Below, piece by piece: positions 16,051 through 22,538 of a stretch of 64,000 nt of DNA. The notes under the pieces are model-generated. The model saw only the letters and a list, made by a program, of their open reading frames with translations, was not told the origin of the DNA and made no database searches. The stretch covers positions 1 to 64,000 of the forward strand of contig JALWSS010000099.1 in NCBI GenBank assembly GCA_026993525.1, read 5' to 3'. The position numbers and the translations under genes are program-made. How positions within the stretch are numbered: the stretch's first letter is position 1; each line of letters starts with the position of its first letter. The stretch comes from Saprospiraceae bacterium. GTDB lineage: Bacteria; Bacteroidota; Bacteroidia; Chitinophagales; Saprospiraceae.

Positions 16051-16077
16051 GGTTTTGCCGATGGCAAAACCTTTTTT
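16051..16077 (+). terminator. Rho-independent terminator after the DUF2795 gene
   Basis: Stem GGTTTTGCC/GGCAAAACC with a 3-nt loop is followed by TTTTTT. It overlaps the longest possible frame of pbpC, which supports a downstream start for that gene. Confidence 0.85.
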
Positions 16078-16102
16078 ATTTTGGCACAAAAGCAGCCGTT
16101 TC

Positions 16103-18487
16103 ATGCACCCTGGATCGTTGTTGAACCGCTTCAAATCAAATGCAATGCTATGGTGCACGGCGGCTTACGTCCTTTTCCTTGTCTATCTGTTCAGCCTTCC
16201 GGCCAACCTGTTTGACAAACCCCTATCCACAGTTCTGGTAGCCCGGGAGGGGCAATTGCTCAGTGCGCAAATTGCCGAAGATGAACAGTGGAGACTCCCA
16301 CCACCGGACACCCTTCCCCAAAAGTATGTTCAATGCCTTTTGCAGTTCGAGGACAAGCGTTTCTTCCATCACCCCGGTGTTGATCCGGTGGCCGTGCTCC
16401 GGGCTGTCTGGCTCAATGTGAAGCACCGGAGAATTGTCAGTGGAGGAAGCACCATTTCCATGCAGGTCATCAGACTCAGCCGTGGTAACAGGCGAAGAAC
16501 CATTGCCGAAAAGCTCAAAGAGATGGTGCTGGCCACCCGATTGGAGTTGAGATTTTCCAAAGCTGAAATCCTGAAAATGTACGCCACCCACGCCCCTTAT
16601 GGCGGCAATGTGGTTGGCATTGAATCCGCTTCCTGGCGTTACTTCAACAAACCCTCTTCACTGCTGAGCTGGGGTGAGGCAGCCACACTGGCTGTTTTGC
16701 CCAACAGCCCCGCCCTGATACATCCGGGCCGAAACAGGAGTGCATTGCGGTCGAAGCGCAACGCATTGTTGCACGTGCTTCTGAAAAAGAAGATCATTGA
16801 CCAACAGGAGTTTGAGCTTGCCAGCGCGGAGCCAATTCCGGATTCCCCGGTCAGCCTGCCCGTCAACGCGCCCCACCTGCTCGATTTTCTTCGCAAACAG
16901 GGCAAGTCGGGCAGGTTGAAAACAACGATTGATTATTCCCTTCAAAAGCAACTTATTGAACTGGCCAATAACCATTGGTCCCATTTGAAATACCAGGGAA
17001 CCCACAACCTGGCCATTCTGGTTCTCAACCTTGAAACAAATCAGGTGTTGGCCTATGTGGGCAACAGCCCAAATGCCGGCCCCCGGCATGGGCAATTTGT
17101 GGACATTGTCCAGGCACCGAGAAGCTCAGGCAGCATTCTGAAGCCCTTCCTTTACGCATCGGCACTGGGTTCGGGAGAAATCCTGCCCAAAGCTTTTCTG
17201 ACAGACATTCCACTGTCAATTGCAGGATACAGACCGGAAAATTACCTCCGCACCTATGACGGGGTTGTACCTGCCAACAAGGCTTTATCCCGTTCATTGA
17301 ATGTGCCATTCGTCAAACTTTTGCAGCAATACGGCGTGTCCAGATTCTACAATAAGTTGAAAGCGGCAGGCATCAACAGCCTCCACCATCCGCCGGATCA
17401 CTATGGCCTCAGCTTGATTCTCGGTGGCGCTGAATGTACGCTCTGGGATGTCACCAACGCCTATGCGGGTATGGCAAAAAGCCTGAACAATTATTACGAC
17501 CAGTCACAAAAGGAATGGGTGACCGACCCATTTGTGCCGGCAACACCGCTAATGGCCGGTGCCGGAAATGTTTCATCGAAAAAAGTCAGGCAAGAAAAAC
17601 TTCCGTTCACCTCAGATGCTATTTACTTCACCTTTCAGGCAATGACCGAAGTGGTCAGGCCGGGCGTTGAAGGTGATTGGAAAAGATTTCAGGCCAGCCG
17701 GCGCATTGCCTGGAAAACGGGCACCAGCTTCGGCTTTCGGGATGCATGGGCCATAGGCGTTGATACCAGGTACGCCGTGGGTGTTTGGGCAGGCAATGCA
17801 GATGGTGAAGGCCGCCCCGGCCTGATTGGTGTTTATGCAGCTGCACCGCTTCTTTTTGATGTATTCAAGAAACTGCCTGTTTCCGGTAATTGGTTCGAAG
17901 TGCCTTATGATGAAATGGAAAACGCTGTGGTTTGCAGGGAAAGTGGTTTTCTGGCCACGGAGTATTGCCCTGCCGACACAACATTGACCACCAACAAGGC
18001 TTTCAGGTCTCCAGCCTGCCCTTATCACAAACCGGTTCACCTTTCAGAAGACGGGAAATACCGCGTTACCAGAGATTGCCAGTTAAATGGCAAAATAAAA
18101 GATGCCACCTGGCTGATCTTGTCACCAACGGAAGAATACTACTACCGGAAGAAACACCCGGAATACCAACCCCCTCCCCCCTTGCACCCGGATTGCGTTG
18201 CCCCAGGTTCACAAACCGACAAACCACTGGAGTTGATTTACCCCAATACTACCACGATCCTGGTTCCACCCATTGACCTCAATGGAAAACTAAACACCAT
18301 TGTTCTTAAAGCAAGCCACCGAAATGCCGATGCTGTAGTCTTCTGGCACCTCGACAACAGGTACCTGGGAAGCACCAAAGGCCTTCACACCATGGAAGTG
18401 CTTCCTTCGGCAGGGAAGCACCATGTGGTGGTGGTTGACGAACTCGGGAATGTGGCAGAAAGGTGGATTGAGATCAAAATGGAATAA
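16103..18487 (+). CDS. pbpC: Penicillin-binding protein 1C
   Basis: A bifunctional peptidoglycan synthase of about 794 residues. One N-terminal membrane helix (AAYVLFLVYLFSLPANLF) precedes a GT51 glycosyltransferase domain with QFEDKRFFHHPGVD (catalytic Glu) and GGSTISMQVIRLSR. The transpeptidase domain has SILK (Ser344), SLN and KTGTS, the three classical motifs, and the tail is a PBP1C-type C-terminal domain. The frame opens at a TTG at 16055, but the hairpin at 16051-16077 occupies that point. ATG 16103 or ATG 16145 is the likely start, and 16103 is used here. In many bacteria pbpC pairs with an alpha-2-macroglobulin gene, which is absent here. Confidence 0.92.
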   Translation: MHPGSLLNRFKSNAMLWCTAAYVLFLVYLFSLPANLFDKPLSTVLVAREGQLLSAQIAEDEQWRLPPPDTLPQKYVQCLLQFEDKRFFHHPGVDPVAVLRAVWLNVKHRRIVSGGSTISMQVIRLSRGNRRRTIAEKLKEMVLATRLELRFSKAEILKMYATHAPYGGNVVGIESASWRYFNKPSSLLSWGEAATLAVLPNSPALIHPGRNRSALRSKRNALLHVLLKKKIIDQQEFELASAEPIPDSPVSLPVNAPHLLDFLRKQGKSGRLKTTIDYSLQKQLIELANNHWSHLKYQGTHNLAILVLNLETNQVLAYVGNSPNAGPRHGQFVDIVQAPRSSGSILKPFLYASALGSGEILPKAFLTDIPLSIAGYRPENYLRTYDGVVPANKALSRSLNVPFVKLLQQYGVSRFYNKLKAAGINSLHHPPDHYGLSLILGGAECTLWDVTNAYAGMAKSLNNYYDQSQKEWVTDPFVPATPLMAGAGNVSSKKVRQEKLPFTSDAIYFTFQAMTEVVRPGVEGDWKRFQASRRIAWKTGTSFGFRDAWAIGVDTRYAVGVWAGNADGEGRPGLIGVYAAAPLLFDVFKKLPVSGNWFEVPYDEMENAVVCRESGFLATEYCPADTTLTTNKAFRSPACPYHKPVHLSEDGKYRVTRDCQLNGKIKDATWLILSPTEEYYYRKKHPEYQPPPPLHPDCVAPGSQTDKPLELIYPNTTTILVPPIDLNGKLNTIVLKASHRNADAVVFWHLDNRYLGSTKGLHTMEVLPSAGKHHVVVVDELGNVAERWIEIKME

Positions 18488-18554
18488 AAAAAACTCCTAC
18501 ATCGGGGAGGCTTGGCTGATGTAGGAGCACTAAACATACTATGAGAAAACTACA
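18486..18554 (-). ncRNA. Candidate small RNA, cassette 1
   Basis: Read on the minus strand, this is a short transcript unit of about 69 nt. It starts near the reverse complement of AAACATACTATGAGAAAACT (18532-18551) and ends in a 10-bp hairpin (CTCCTACATC/GATGTAGGAG, 18494-18527) followed by eight T. The hairpin loop is C-rich (CCTCCCC). A full promoter sits just upstream. The same 20-mer plus hairpin occurs at 18684 and 19022. The alternative is that these are only repeated terminators, or, on the plus strand, leaders of tiny MRKL-type frames. Confidence 0.55.
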
Positions 18555-18559
18555 CGGTG

Positions 18560-18588
18560 CAAATTTAACGGCACACGGACCTACCCAA
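18560..18588 (-). promoter_or_regulatory. Promoter of cassette 1
   Basis: Minus-strand TTG (18586-18588), 18 bp, then TAAATTTG (18560-18567), a perfect Bacteroidota -33/-7 pair with the same spacing as the tRNA-Glu promoter at 31339. Initiation would fall at the start of the conserved 20-mer. Confidence 0.65.
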
Positions 18589-18599
18589 AAGCGCCTTTT

Positions 18600-18669
18600 A
18601 GGGAACGGGCACTTTCATCAGGAAACGGAACCAGTTATTTAGAAAAGGGAAAACCGCGTTGGAAACGGG
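18600..18669 (-). promoter_or_regulatory. LytTR-like direct-repeat array A
   Basis: Four related decamers start at 18600 (AGGGAACGGG), 18620 (AGGAAACGGA), 18641 (AGAAAAGGGA) and 18660 (TGGAAACGGG), so the period is 19-21 bp, about two helical turns. On the minus strand they read CCCGTTCCCT and variants, sharing the CCGTTC core of AlgR sites. The nearest one lies 11 bp upstream of the -33 TTG of cassette 1. Confidence 0.55.
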
Positions 18670-18683
18670 AGCAAAAACCCCAT

Positions 18684-18752
18684 AAAAAAAAATTCCTACA
18701 CCCCAGAAGGGACAAAGGTGTAGGAGAATTAAACATACTATGAGAAAACTTG
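18684..18752 (-). ncRNA. Candidate small RNA, cassette 2
   Basis: Second copy: the identical 20-mer at 18731-18750, then on the minus strand a 9-bp hairpin (TCCTACACC/GGTGTAGGA, 18694-18725) with a loop containing TCCCTTCT, then nine T. The -7 box candidate TATCTTAG (18756-18763) has one mismatch and no matching -33 TTG, so activation would be needed. Confidence 0.5.
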
Positions 18753-18795
18753 GCGCTAAGATATAACCACAAGTTGCGTTTGGAAAGCACCATTT

Positions 18796-18846
18796 AGGGA
18801 ACGGGCACTTTCATCAGGGAACGGGCACTTTTTTTTAGGGAACGGG
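18796..18846 (-). promoter_or_regulatory. LytTR-like direct-repeat array B
   Basis: Three identical decamers AGGGAACGGG at 18796, 18816 and 18837 (spacing 20 and 21). The nearest begins 40 bp from the start of the cassette 2 -7 box, exactly the same offset as array A to the cassette 1 box. Confidence 0.6.
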
Positions 18847-18866
18847 AATTTTTTGCCGGAAATGAT

Positions 18867-18998
18867 TATGTTTGCCCCCGAAATGATGAAAAATCATCAT
18901 GTGATTTAGCGCCTGAAAAGACTGAGCACTAAACTCACTTGAGAACTACACAACTTGAAACTTTCAAATGGCCCTGATCGTTTGGGGCCTTTTTTTAA
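18867..18998 (+). ncRNA. Candidate plus-strand small transcript
   Basis: A perfect -7 box TATGTTTG (18867-18874) without a clear -33 element is followed about 95 nt later by a plus-strand terminator (GGCCC/GGGCC stem, 18970-18989, then T7). Inside, 18924-18950 resembles the start of the minus-strand cassettes in degenerate form. A 13-codon frame is present but has no support. Confidence 0.3.
18970..18996 (+). terminator. Plus-strand Rho-independent terminator
   Basis: GGCCC/GGGCC stem with a 10-nt loop, then TTTTTTT. No annotated plus-strand gene lies within 480 bp upstream, so it suggests a separate short transcript. Confidence 0.7.
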
Positions 18999-19021
18999 TG
19001 ACCGGGTCAAATGTGGCCCAT

Positions 19022-19092
19022 AAAAAAATCCTGCACCCCAGGAGGGAAACACAAGGTGCAGGAAGATCAAACAAACATACTATGAGAAAACT
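19022..19092 (-). ncRNA. Cassette 3 / terminator after the histidine kinase gene
   Basis: Third copy: the 20-mer AAACATACTATGAGAAAACT at 19073-19092 and a 9-bp hairpin (TCCTGCACC/GGTGCAGGA, 19029-19063) whose minus-strand loop contains CCCTCCTGG, then seven T. A perfect -7 box TATATTTG (19096-19103) lies just upstream, but there are no decamer repeats. It also lies in line with the kinase transcript and can act as its terminator. Confidence 0.5.
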
Positions 19093-19161
19093 TGACAAAT
19101 ATATTCAAATCTCTTATTATTTGTAATACATAAGAGTTTTTATTTGAATACAAGTTTTCTC
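19084..19161 (-). repeat. Long imperfect inverted repeat after the kinase stop codon
   Basis: Arms pair in three blocks: GAGAAAACTTG with CAAGTTTTCTC, ATTCAAAT with ATTTGAAT, and CTCTTAT with ATAAGAG, with a 12-nt apex. It begins 4 bp after the kinase stop and uses part of the cassette 3 20-mer as one arm, so folding could compete with cassette 3 initiation or read-through. Confidence 0.7.
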
Positions 19162-19165
19162 TCAA

Positions 19166-21097
19166 CTAAAACTCCTTGTGGCTTTTGCGAATAGGTACGT
19201 CCAGTATCGGCAATCGGATCTCCACTCTGGTGCCACAAGGGGTTCCCTCCTGGTCTTTCAGATCAATGATTCGCACTGGCTGTTCTTCGCGTTCATTTCT
19301 CGTCTTAAACAAGACTTTCAATCGCTCCCGGGTGATTTTGGTTCCGAAAGAGATGTGCTTCTTATAGCCCGTCTTTTGCTGTTGCTCACGGGCTTTTTCC
19401 CTTCCCAACCCGTTGTCTTCCACTACGCACAGTATGGTATCTTCGTCTTCCAATGAAAAGTGAATTCTGATGAACCCATCTTTCCGTGAACGAATGCCGT
19501 GTTCGATGGCATTCTCTACGTACGGCTGTATGATCATTGTGGGAATTCCACAGATATCTTCGTCAATCTCCTCGTCAACCAGGATTTCATAAGACATTCG
19601 GTTTTCAAAGCGCAACTTCTCATTGATCTCCAGGTAGTCCTGAAGAAACTCTCTTTCTTTTTCCACTGAAATGATTTCGAGTTCTGAAAAGTCAAGGCTT
19701 TTCCGAACGAGGGTGGCAAACTTCGACAGGTAAACAGAGGCCTTTTGGGGGTCTTGGGAGGTAATGTAAGACTGAACTGAATTGAGACAATTGAATAAGA
19801 AGTGAGGATTCATTTGCGCCCGTAAAGCTTTCAATTGCAAGCCAATTGCTTGTAAACGGAACATCTCGGCTTCCTTCTCCTTTTTCTCAGCTTCATACTT
19901 GATTTCCAGTTCCTGTAGTTCGGAGGCCTTTTCTTCGGCAAAATAGGCTTCAATCACCTCTTCGTATTGCTTCTGGAATTCATAGGCCTTTTCAAACTCA
20001 TATTCATCCGCATACCATTTGGCCAAAAGCTTGAGCACCAGGGCGAGCTGCTTTTTCTCCCCGGATTTTCTTGCCAGGTTCCGGGCCAGATTGAGGTGTT
20101 TGAGCCCTTTCTTCCTTCTGTCAACTGTCAGGTATATCTGTGCCCGCCAAAGCTCGATGTTCGCCAGGTTCTTTTCCCTGTCATCCCTGAACAAAATTTC
20201 GGCCCTTCGGAACAGCTCGAGTGCCTCCGGAAACTTGTCGCGTTGCAAAAAGCAGTAGCCAAGATTTGCATAGGCCATTGCCCGTGCTTGCTGAGTCACA
20301 TCATAGGTGGCCTGAATTGCGTCGGTAAAAAAGACTGCGGCCTGTTCAAATTCTCCCATTGCCATGTAGGCATTTCCCACGTTCAGTAGATGCCATGCCA
20401 TGCGGGACTTCATGCCGTATTCCTTGCACAAATCAAGCACTTCAGTGTAGGCCTTCGCACTTTTTGAGTACTCCTGTGTCCGTTTGTAGATATCTCCAAT
20501 GCCGCTTTTGATGAGAGAGATAAAATAGTAGTCTTTCAAACCCAGGTGTTCCTTCGGCACCCCATCAATTTTGTCCTGTGCCTTTACTAATGACTCCAGC
20601 GCCTTGGTTGGATTGGACCCGAAATACAGGTGAACATAGGCCTCCCGACACAGCAACCTGGATTCCAACCTTTGGTCCGGGAATGAATTCAGCAACCTTT
20701 TGACTTCCGTCAGTACCTGGCGGGCCTCCTCTTCCTCCCGCATGTTGATCAACGTGGCAACATAGTCAAGGTAAGTTTCTGCCAGAGAAGAAGGGTTTCC
20801 GTGCTCTTCAAGGATTGCGAGGGCCTGCTTGAAATAGTCCGCTGAAAGCGTGTAATTATATACCTGGTTTTCCAGCAAAGCCCTGTTCATGTAGTAGCTC
20901 AGGGTTATTTCCTCGTCTTCCTCGTTGTGGTAATCAAGGGAAACTTTCACCCTGGCCAATAGCTCATGAGCTTTGCTTGCATCGGTATAGACCAGCGTTT
21001 CAACCTCATCCAAATGATGTATTATTTCCGCTGGTGTGAGGTACTTTTTGGCTTCGCTTTTCGGATGGCCAGATTCAGCAACAGAACTGGTTTTCAT
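19166..21097 (-). CDS. Cytosolic TPR histidine kinase (LytS/His_kinase type)
   Basis: A 643-residue sensor kinase with no signal peptide or membrane segment. Residues ~20-390 are tetratricopeptide helices (e.g. AWHLLNVGNAYMAMGEFEQA, AMAYANLGYCFLQRDKFPEA), followed by a coiled coil (~385-425), the His_kinase motif LRAQMNPHFLFNCLNSVQSY with phospho-acceptor His432, and a HATPase domain with IIQPYVENAIEHGI and VVEDNGLGR. It should phosphorylate a LytTR regulator, and the one at 21726 is the obvious candidate. Most Bacteroidota relatives carry TPRs outside the membrane; here the TPRs are in the cytosol, where they could bind a small ligand or peptide, as in RRNPP regulators (inference). It lies on the same strand as, and 231 bp after, the GG-leader peptide gene. 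Confidence 0.9.
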   Translation of the reverse strand: MKTSSVAESGHPKSEAKKYLTPAEIIHHLDEVETLVYTDASKAHELLARVKVSLDYHNEEDEEITLSYYMNRALLENQVYNYTLSADYFKQALAILEEHGNPSSLAETYLDYVATLINMREEEEARQVLTEVKRLLNSFPDQRLESRLLCREAYVHLYFGSNPTKALESLVKAQDKIDGVPKEHLGLKDYYFISLIKSGIGDIYKRTQEYSKSAKAYTEVLDLCKEYGMKSRMAWHLLNVGNAYMAMGEFEQAAVFFTDAIQATYDVTQQARAMAYANLGYCFLQRDKFPEALELFRRAEILFRDDREKNLANIELWRAQIYLTVDRRKKGLKHLNLARNLARKSGEKKQLALVLKLLAKWYADEYEFEKAYEFQKQYEEVIEAYFAEEKASELQELEIKYEAEKKEKEAEMFRLQAIGLQLKALRAQMNPHFLFNCLNSVQSYITSQDPQKASVYLSKFATLVRKSLDFSELEIISVEKEREFLQDYLEINEKLRFENRMSYEILVDEEIDEDICGIPTMIIQPYVENAIEHGIRSRKDGFIRIHFSLEDEDTILCVVEDNGLGREKAREQQQKTGYKKHISFGTKITRERLKVLFKTRNEREEQPVRIIDLKDQEGTPCGTRVEIRLPILDVPIRKSHKEF

Positions 21098-21210
21098 GGT
21101 TGTTTTCGTTAATTATCTTTTCCCGATCAATGATTCGTACCCAAAACAAAGAAATCAGAGACCACTCAGTTCCAAATCCACTTCACCTTGAACAGGGAAT
21201 GATTAAAATA

Positions 21211-21250
21211 CAAAAAGAGATTGCTACCCATTCCGGACAATCTCTTTTTG
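21211..21250 (-). terminator. Bidirectional terminator after the GG-leader peptide gene
   Basis: A perfect stem of 12-13 bp (AAAAAGAGATTG/CAATCTCTTTTT, 14-nt loop) ends in T on either strand. It separates the peptide gene from the kinase gene, so the kinase probably has its own promoter or depends on read-through. Confidence 0.75.
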
Positions 21251-21328
21251 AGGGGCTCGCGGCCCGATCACACGATAGCACTTATCATGTGAAGAAGGAA
21301 GAAATACGTGCTAGTAAGGTGTGACAGA

Positions 21329-21496
21329 TCAATGTGGCATTTTGCCATCGCAGGGGTTGGGTCCGAATGAGAATTGGAACCAACGATTCTTGGAAGGTTT
21401 GATATCGCCACCCTTTGTCCGTTTCATTTCTTCACGCGTCAGTTCTTGCGTTTTGCCAAGCTTGTCAAGCCTGGAAGATTTGGTAGTTTCCTTCAT
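21329..21496 (-). CDS. GG-leader peptide precursor (RiPP/bacteriocin or signal type)
   Basis: A 55-residue precursor when started at ATG 21496. The leader (residues 1-30) ends LGKTQELTREEMKRTKGG, very close to the LGKxLTREEMKxIKGG double-glycine leaders of Bacteroidota natural-product and bacteriocin-like precursors. The expected 25-residue core is DIKPSKNRWFQF followed by SFGPNPCDGKMPH, with aromatic residues, one Cys and one Gly-Pro-Asn turn. In-frame ATGs at 21526 and 21595 would extend the leader to 40 or 63 residues; the typical leader length favours 21496. No C39 peptidase-transporter or modification enzyme is in the window. It lies between the LytTR regulator and the TPR kinase on the same strand, which suggests a signalling role rather than a toxin, but this is inference. 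Confidence 0.65.
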   Translation of the reverse strand: MKETTKSSRLDKLGKTQELTREEMKRTKGGDIKPSKNRWFQFSFGPNPCDGKMPH

Positions 21497-21725
21497 AGTC
21501 CTCGACTTTTTGAACAAGTGTAACATAGTGTTTCTCAATTTGTGGGCTGCCACAATTTCATTGCCTCCGGCGACCAAAGGTAGTGCATTACTCATTTCAA
21601 AAAAATTTTCTTGAAAAAAAATCTTAAAGTGTAATGCTGGTCAAAGAATTGATTTGGCTTTGCCTCCCGCAAATCAATCTTCAAATTGTCCGGAAATCAT
21701 CTTCCTTGTGTAGCCCTGTTTAAAG

Positions 21726-22538
21726 TCAAAAACCCAAACCACGGCGCTTCAGTTGCTCCATGAAATAGGCCCGTCTTCGCTTTGCGATTTCGATCTTCTC
21801 GCCATCAGACATGATCACATAACCTCCATCTTTCTTTACCACTTTGAGCATGTAGTTCATGTTGATGACGTGGCTCTTATGAACCCGGATGAAGTTCTTG
21901 TCCTCGAGTAATTCTTCGTAGAATTTGATTGTTTTGGGAACGATGATGGGGTCGCCGTTCTGCAGGTGGATGTTGGTGTAGCTGTCGTCAGCAGAAAAAC
22001 GAACGATGTCGGTTATTTTGATGAAGTGGATCCCGTCAACAGCAGAAACGCTGATTTTGTCAAAGGCATTCGCATTGGCATTGTTCAACTGGCTGGAGAA
22101 CAAGTCCAAACGCTGCTCGATCATGCGCTTGTTGCTTATCCTGATCCGGTTGATGGCATGGACCAGGTCATCGGGGTTGATGGGTTTGAGGATGTAGCCT
22201 ATCGAACTGTACTCGCAGGCTTTGATCGCATGCTGGTCATAGGCTGTGATGAAGATGATTTCAAAGTCGAGGGGTCTTAGGCTGTCGAGAAGTGAGAATA
22301 CCAAACCATCCGGCAGGGCGATGTCCAAAAACGCAACGTCCGGTTTAAAGTCAGGACTTTTGAACAAGGTCTTTCCTTCTTCAATGCTGGCAGCTTCTCC
22401 AATAACTTTTACGGTGGGACAATGGGCGGCCAGGAGATTTTTCAGGTTGGCCATTCCTCTGGGTTCGTCTTCCACAATGAAGGCATTAACGATCCCGGTT
22501 GCGCTCTGGGTTGTCTTGGACAGTTCTGTAGTGATCAT
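21726..22538 (-). CDS. LytTR response regulator
   Basis: A 270-residue two-component regulator. The receiver domain carries the acidic pocket EDE (23-25), phospho-acceptor Asp72 in FLDIALPDG, and Lys118 in ILKPINP. A linker leads to a LytTR DNA-binding domain (~165-265: DIVRFSADDSYTNIHLQNG, FIRVHKSHVINMNYM). LytTR proteins bind two ~9-bp direct repeats about 21 bp apart, a pattern present at 18600-18846. It is the probable partner of the TPR kinase at 19166. The gene lies 81 bp after the MptE-like gene on the same strand, with a palindrome in its upstream region. Confidence 0.93.
   Translation of the reverse strand: MITTELSKTTQSATGIVNAFIVEDEPRGMANLKNLLAAHCPTVKVIGEAASIEEGKTLFKSPDFKPDVAFLDIALPDGLVFSLLDSLRPLDFEIIFITAYDQHAIKACEYSSIGYILKPINPDDLVHAINRIRISNKRMIEQRLDLFSSQLNNANANAFDKISVSAVDGIHFIKITDIVRFSADDSYTNIHLQNGDPIIVPKTIKFYEELLEDKNFIRVHKSHVINMNYMLKVVKKDGGYVIMSDGEKIEIAKRRRAYFMEQLKRRGLGF

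Follow-up and report, generated by a model that had tools for sequence, protein, structure and literature searches.

A conserved locus of Saprospiraceae with a double-glycine peptide, a soluble TPR histidine kinase, a LytTR regulator and candidate small RNAs: a probable feedback circuit

Do a regulator gene, a small peptide gene, a kinase gene and a set of putative small-RNA genes, which stand side by side in a Saprospiraceae genome, work as one circuit? The locus that raises this question is in contig JALWSS010000099.1 (assembly GCA_026993525.1), of which we analysed positions 1 to 64,000, here called the window. On the minus strand of the window there are, in order of transcription, a LytTR response regulator, an open reading frame (ORF) for a peptide with a double-glycine (GG) leader, a histidine kinase with tetratricopeptide repeats (TPRs) and three cassettes which end in terminators (Table 1). 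A sequence-only reading had compared this arrangement with agr and RNAIII, and had proposed that the TPR sensor could bind a re-imported peptide.

Judged by comparison with relatives, the parts of this module are real and conserved, and so are the gene order, the repeats in the predicted promoters of the RNA genes and the complementarity between the RNA seed and the start of the peptide gene. The whole module is, in our judgement, probably a peptide, two-component and small-RNA feedback circuit of Saprospiraceae.

Gene order and distribution

The conserved 5' part of the cassettes, called the seed here, was used to find relatives. In a set of 120 genomes, which is the family Saprospiraceae as judged from named contigs, a 17-nt cassette tip/core (at most one mismatch) was found in 64 genomes, often in arrays of 2-4, against a total of 5 hits for the reversed pattern used as control. 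The TPR kinase (E <= 1e-100) was present in 62 of the 120. Both occurred together in 57 genomes and were both absent from 51 (Fisher p 3.5e-20), in counts that are not independent because the sequences are related. The exact 19-mer form was found in 2 of 6 family members drawn and in none of 389 other Bacteroidota genomes drawn. Scanning species genomes for the seed gave at least 119 stretches. Among the 80 matches listed, most were labelled Saprospiraceae, and the remaining labels were mainly other Bacteroidota names (Phaeodactylibacter xiamenensis, P. luteus, Lewinella bins), with one metagenome-assembled genome labelled Thalassovita. The named isolate P. luteus had regulator, peptide, kinase and seed. 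The named isolate P. xiamenensis had peptide, kinase and seed in a stretch that ends before the regulator. The presence of the module in named isolates makes it testable.

For gene order we picked 40 regions from the seed matches in 38 of the 64 seed-bearing genomes, and arrays were favoured in this choice. A kinase orthologue (38-49% identity) was directly 5' of the cassettes on the same strand in 26 regions. The LytTR regulator was upstream of the kinase in 23 of these 26, and a GG peptide gene was between them in 22 of the 23 regions with both, as expected of a cognate signal. In the remaining one (L052), the ORF between regulator and kinase keeps the conserved C-terminus of the peptides without GG. 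In L057 and L063 the stretch upstream of the kinase showed neither regulator nor peptide, and region L054 is truncated by the contig start. An 809-residue ORF is additionally present between peptide and kinase in L051. In genome G061, of the same genus as the window, three cassettes of the same kinds (A, B and C) adjoin the kinase.

The sequence-only reading had set conservation of gene order as its own check, and regulator, peptide, kinase and cassettes are kept on one strand in relatives. Its LytTR regulator at 21726 was borne out by Pfam. Its small GG gene at 21329-21595 is a real ORF whose start has to be moved: by comparison with relatives, 21496 is most likely the start.

Candidate small-RNA genes and their LytTR-type repeats

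All three cassettes open with AGTTTTCTCATAGTATGTTT and close with a hairpin and a T-run, as had been noticed before from the sequence. The fold z values of the cassettes starting near 19092, 18750 and 18555 were -2.9, -3.7 and -3.9. The genome (5.16 Mb) has four copies of the exact 18-mer core: the three of this locus and a fourth on contig C26, again followed by hairpin and T-run. This scarcity, and the recurrence across the family, means that the repetition of the cassettes exceeds chance. Three paralogous classes recur in relatives: A beside the kinase, then B, then C. In a hand-chosen alignment of 28 cassettes (A3), 92.6% of the stem cells were paired, and the covariation score was 0.348 against 0.180 for shuffled alignments (0 of 500 reached it) and at most 0.162 for slid ones. 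No Rfam 15 family reached its gathering score for the cassettes (presence of a FopS model in this release was unchecked), and no csRNA family was among the Rfam matches listed.

An element that resembles TAnnTTTG, which we take to be the -7-type promoter motif, precedes cassettes A and C (TATATTTG and TAAATTTG). Only a few bases separate it from the seed, which should therefore form the 5' end of the RNA. With a conserved 5' seed and a covarying terminator hairpin, the cassettes look like small-RNA genes, and we infer that they are transcribed. The cassettes contain ATGAGAAAACT and were also considered as plus-strand genes; this was rejected because the order of hairpin and T-run fits the minus strand, where the repeats are upstream too.

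These repeats are of LytTR type. The regulator, one of the genome's 13 LytTR matches, keeps the receiver residues expected by reading its sequence (acidic VEDE, FLD, T of FITA, K of LKP). In a position-weight matrix scan, direct repeats were found at cassettes B and C, which agrees with the earlier claim of LytTR-period repeats at two of the three. For 214 distinct cassette upstreams, the repeat consensus was taCCGtTtcCTAAa, positioned about 101, 80 and 59 bases before the seed, and the spacing had peaks at 20-21 bp (140 pairs) and 41-42 bp (94 pairs). Matrix hits numbered 425 on the forward and 17 on the reverse strand, at least two repeats, mostly 20-21 bp apart, preceded 153 of the 214 cassettes, and paired sites were found 79 times near seeds and 7 times elsewhere in 1.03 Mb of strand; these counts are partly circular, because the upstream sequences had also served to train the matrix. 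A fixed motif, which is less circular, was present in 84 of the 214 upstreams, against 0 in the reverse complement, 1 in the reversed and 0.6 in the shuffled sequences. Of 39 peptide genes, only 1 had paired sites in the 400 bases that precede it. AgrA too binds two direct repeats, and the promoter-proximal ones are described as centred near -60 (PMC4227749).

Table 1. Features of the locus in the window
Feature	Position	Strand	Basis
LytTR response regulator, 270 aa	21726..22538	-	Pfam Response_reg 5.4e-13, LytTR 1.1e-17; orthologue upstream of kinase in 23/26 regions
Double-glycine leader peptide gene, 55 aa, MKETT...KGG / DIKPSKNRWFQFSFGPNPCDGKMPH	21329..21496	-	Conserved small ORF, same place in relatives
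Soluble TPR histidine kinase, 643 aa	19166..21097	-	PF06580 7.5e-22 plus TPRs (Pfam), hydropathy, alignment A2, AlphaFold2
Presumed -7-type element of cassette A, TATATTTG	19096..19103	-	Read from sequence
Cassette A (seed, hairpin, T-run)	19022..19092	-	Same class recurs in relatives
Three LytTR-type direct repeats of cassette B, 16-mers at 18848, 18827, 18807	18792..18848	-	Position-weight matrix scan
Cassette B	18684..18750	-	Class recurs in relatives
LytTR-type direct repeats of cassette C at 18671, 18652, 18631, 18611	18596..18671	-	Position-weight matrix scan
Presumed -7-type element of cassette C, TAAATTTG	18560..18567	-	Read from sequence
Cassette C (GTGTAG extension before seed)	18486..18555	-	Class recurs in relatives

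Some further observations concern the cassettes. Between A and B (18924-18996), the minus strand seems to carry a decayed copy of class C. The plus strand at 18970-18996 has a terminator-like hairpin by computed fold, which could yield an RNA antisense to cassette C. Genome G061 has a similarly decayed copy without the plus-strand terminator. On contig C145 of the own genome (35062-35079, L013), a terminator-like hairpin on the plus strand has the complement of the seed in its loop, which would fit a sponge RNA. A fourth cassette class (TTGTTTTCTCATAGTATGTTTG and a hairpin) is present unlinked to the locus on the own contig C26 (L009) and in G061 (L392), G015 (L376) and G091 (L385). The terminator loops are C-rich and class-specific (CUCCCUCC, CCCUUC, GCCUCC), cassette A (minus strand) being an example; perhaps they are a second pairing site.

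The start of the peptide gene as candidate RNA target

The peptide gene itself is the best-supported target of the putative RNAs. In the window, the energy of pairing between the start of this gene and the consensus seed is -15.4 kcal/mol. We collected 39 peptide genes by GG together with a P[QH] or NQ ending, so that loci without these, like L052, were excluded, and the spurious ORF L142 was removed before counting. Their usual start context, (T)(A/G)CT-ATG-GGA-AAA, is complementary to the seed. All start energies were calculated with one consensus seed rather than with the RNA of each genome. An energy of -14 kcal/mol or lower was reached by 28 of the 39 peptide genes and by 9 of 694 control ORF starts in the same regions, and [AG]CT preceded the ATG in 33 of 39 and 32 of 694, respectively; for the controls this was simply the first ATG of a long ORF, and for the peptides leader length and second residue guided the choice of start. 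With the 15 upstream bases shuffled, the mean energy of the peptide starts was -10.4 instead of -15.1. Upstream conservation was at columns -4 to -1 and in an A-rich part at -13 to -11, with -10 to -5 unconserved, and at -3 there is A or G, either of which pairs with U.

With the best of the first three ATGs, -14 was reached by 1 of 67 kinase starts, 0 of 39 regulator starts and 0 of 35 starts of a neighbouring PBP1C-type gene, in sets where some genomes were represented twice. In the five kinase-bearing genomes without the seed, four candidate peptide starts were unpaired (-2.3 to -8.6; the ORF of one of these genomes, G111, is uncertain as a peptide) and one had -12.6.

The RNAs might mainly act on other mRNAs, with the peptide gene as one member of a larger regulon, and we consider this possible but doubtful. 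It would fit with TACTATGRGAAAA at 15 other ORF starts in 25 genomes, for which no chance expectation was computed (a 16th match, L342, was excluded as being inside a longer frame), and with DUF6089 proteins among the seed-matching starts of the own genome (one mismatch) and G015. However, the 15 proteins share no Pfam family except the common TPR, five of them match none, and a wider regulon based on a conserved target family was therefore rejected. The starts of dprA (L220) and comF (L233) in the own genome also match the seed, but the match is not conserved: the first start reached -14 in 2 of 29 further dprA loci (L260, L263) and in none of 14 further comF loci, in a check that took the wrong ORF for some loci including the own two. 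A competence regulon as conserved target was rejected.

Kinase, peptide and the proposed circuit

The kinase had been described before as a TPR kinase without membrane segment, and this agrees with its Pfam matches and with a best 19-residue hydropathy of 0.83. Over 63 orthologue sequences, among which some genomes were represented twice, the maximum was 1.71; it was reached only in L090 and L175 (same values), within the ATPase part at residue 543. The protein consists of a TPR superhelix (about 22-364), a long helix (368-445) with His432, and then the ATPase domain. The QMNPHF box is invariant in 30 aligned sequences (alignment A2). The C-terminal part is His_kinase PF06580, and no DNA-binding family was listed in the Pfam scan. 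The AlphaFold2 model had mean pLDDT 85.9 and pTM 0.61. Its fold matched RapI (Z 24.6) and NprR (Z 23.6), but equally LGN (26.9), and APC/C subunits matched as well or better too, so that the fold does not point to one kind of ligand.

With its start at 21496, the window peptide has GG at 29-30 and a 25-residue core. The peptides at the same place in relatives mostly have 45-60 aa, GG and a C-terminus near CGGI/LxPQ. No C39-type transporter was beside the locus among 57 loci and the window, except for one partial match (L067), limited to the C-terminal part and rejected as probably any ABC transporter. Two C39-peptidase proteins of ABC-exporter size (778 and 746 residues) are encoded in the genome, unlinked to the locus. 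For rSAM-modified peptides (TIGR04149), the window peptide scored 14.8 bits, below the curated cut-off of 25.

We propose the following mechanism. The soluble kinase would phosphorylate the LytTR regulator, which would bind direct repeats spaced at 20-21 bp, two or three of them, and switch on the tandem array of genes, each for an RNA of about 70 nt. The unpaired 5' seed of these RNAs (AGUUUUCUCAUAGUAUGUUU) would base-pair with the peptide mRNA over its start codon and prevent translation. A C39-type transporter whose gene is elsewhere would probably export the GG-leader peptide, which would be the signal, or part of the signal, read by the kinase. The outcome would be a self-limiting loop. 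Phosphotransfer, a regulator that activates and does not repress, translational repression, export and sensing are steps that we infer.

Several points weigh against this circuit, in addition to the circular matrix, the choice of controls and the relatedness of sequences mentioned above. The array was apart from the kinase in 14 of the 40 regions, some at contig ends, and among the 120 genomes the seed alone was present in 7 and the kinase alone in 5. No LytTR-type repeat scoring above 8.5 was found upstream of cassette A of the window in the matrix scan. Stem pairs changed on both sides were 6 of 11, which 66 of 500 shuffles equalled. Cassettes are present together with an unpaired peptide start in L051, L084, L086, L089 and G066. 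ComC models matched only one and two of the 27 aligned peptides (alignment A1, from the 39), weakly, with best E 0.03 and 0.095, and one match with a displayed cut-off fell below it (12.9 vs 20.4). The remaining points against, which concern the bacteriocin-type leader, the C-terminus and the pairing of core and TPR domain, also favour a rival explanation.

According to this rival, the peptide does not signal but acts as an effector, bacteriocin-like or otherwise secreted; the kinase would respond to another input, and the RNAs would simply restrain peptide output. We regard it as conceivable, on the unlikely side. The bacteriocin-type leader model TIGR01847 weakly matched 5 of the 27 peptides (best E 0.0069). 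Unlike pheromones of the kind that diverge between strains, the peptides keep their C-terminus across genera. A mirror-tree test gave no support for pairing of the TPR part with the peptide core (partial r 0.06, p 0.28), and the cores followed the kinase half instead (partial r 0.41). This outcome makes binding of the core by the TPR domain less likely. On the other side, the place of the peptide gene between regulator and kinase, in 22 of the 23 loci with both, speaks against an effector, and so does the absence of a linked transporter, apart from the one partial match, at the loci searched.

It is less probable still that the peptide stays in the cell as a small protein which binds the kinase directly as inhibitor or activator. 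The soluble kinase, the absence of an exporter linked to the locus and the C-terminus kept without GG in L052 would agree with this. However, all 27 aligned peptides have GG, a feature for which they had been selected, and the genome has the two C39-peptidase proteins of exporter size. Unrelated neighbours are common in genomes, but that the genes here are neighbours without functional connection is contradicted by gene order, co-occurrence and complementarity, and is hardly credible.

Taken as a whole, the earlier circuit interpretation is partly supported. The conserved order and the LytTR-type repeats upstream of the cassettes agree with it. Unlike RNAIII, a single effector, the putative RNAs are a multi-copy family of seed and terminator. 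Its re-imported peptide bound by the TPR domain is unproven, since the fold is also like LGN and APC/C subunits and, once the kinase part is allowed for, the cores show no co-variation with the TPR part. We put forward only tentatively a quorum-sensing version of the feedback circuit, in which the soluble TPR kinase would be the intracellular receptor of a GG pheromone, its LytTR partner would drive the RNA array, and the RNAs would set the pheromone level at the start codon.

The closest analogues are the pneumococcal csRNAs on comC and FopS of Bacteroides. The csRNAs of Streptococcus pneumoniae (CiaRH) are described as acting on comC (PMC4507080, PMC8186281). In contrast to them, the RNA genes here adjoin peptide, kinase and regulator, in a different phylum, and the regulator beside them is a LytTR protein with LytTR-type repeats preceding the RNAs; CiaR was not searched for. 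CiaR is another type of regulator, at another locus. The FopS small RNAs of Bacteroides thetaiotaomicron are described as 14 members which act on SusC-like genes with a 5' seed near start codons (PMC11697453). The cassettes are like FopS in having several paralogues, a single-stranded 5' seed, a terminator hairpin, pairing at the start codon and a Bacteroidota host, though here these are sequence predictions. No linked two-component system or peptide is described for FopS in the accessible part of PMC11697453.

Like the locus, ComCDE and agr have a small peptide precursor, a histidine kinase, a LytTR regulator and direct-repeat sites (for AgrA, as described in PMC4227749), and agr has a regulatory RNA. 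The kinase here is soluble and has TPRs. The receptor kinases of ComCDE and agr are membrane proteins. The cytosolic TPR superhelix next to a small peptide gene is like RRNPPA receptors (Rap, Rgg, NprR, PlcR, PrgX, AimR), whose TPRs go with a DNA-binding or Rap-type partner domain and not with a kinase; here they are fused to a histidine kinase, and the leader is of GG type. RRNPPA receptors are described from Firmicutes (PMC9765709). As features of these systems are combined, but with a kinase partner unlike RRNPPA and without the membrane receptor of ComCDE, we class the module as a variant that would behave as a peptide circuit does, with a feedback arm made of RNAs.

No published account of this circuit was found among the titles and abstract openings listed in a literature search of open-licence papers, and it looks undescribed. 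Saprospiraceae are reported as abundant in wastewater plants (PMC9304909). The module is a concrete candidate for cell-cell signalling in this family with its parts named, and it includes a small-RNA family without Rfam 15 match that nevertheless has a predicted regulator and target. The soluble TPR kinase may be a new kind of peptide receptor; if true, this receptor class would join RRNPP-like sensing to a phosphorelay, with an RNA homeostat.

Beside the locus, the PBP1C-type gene (16055-18487, plus strand) is convergent with the array, and 16 of the 40 regions contained an orthologue of it.

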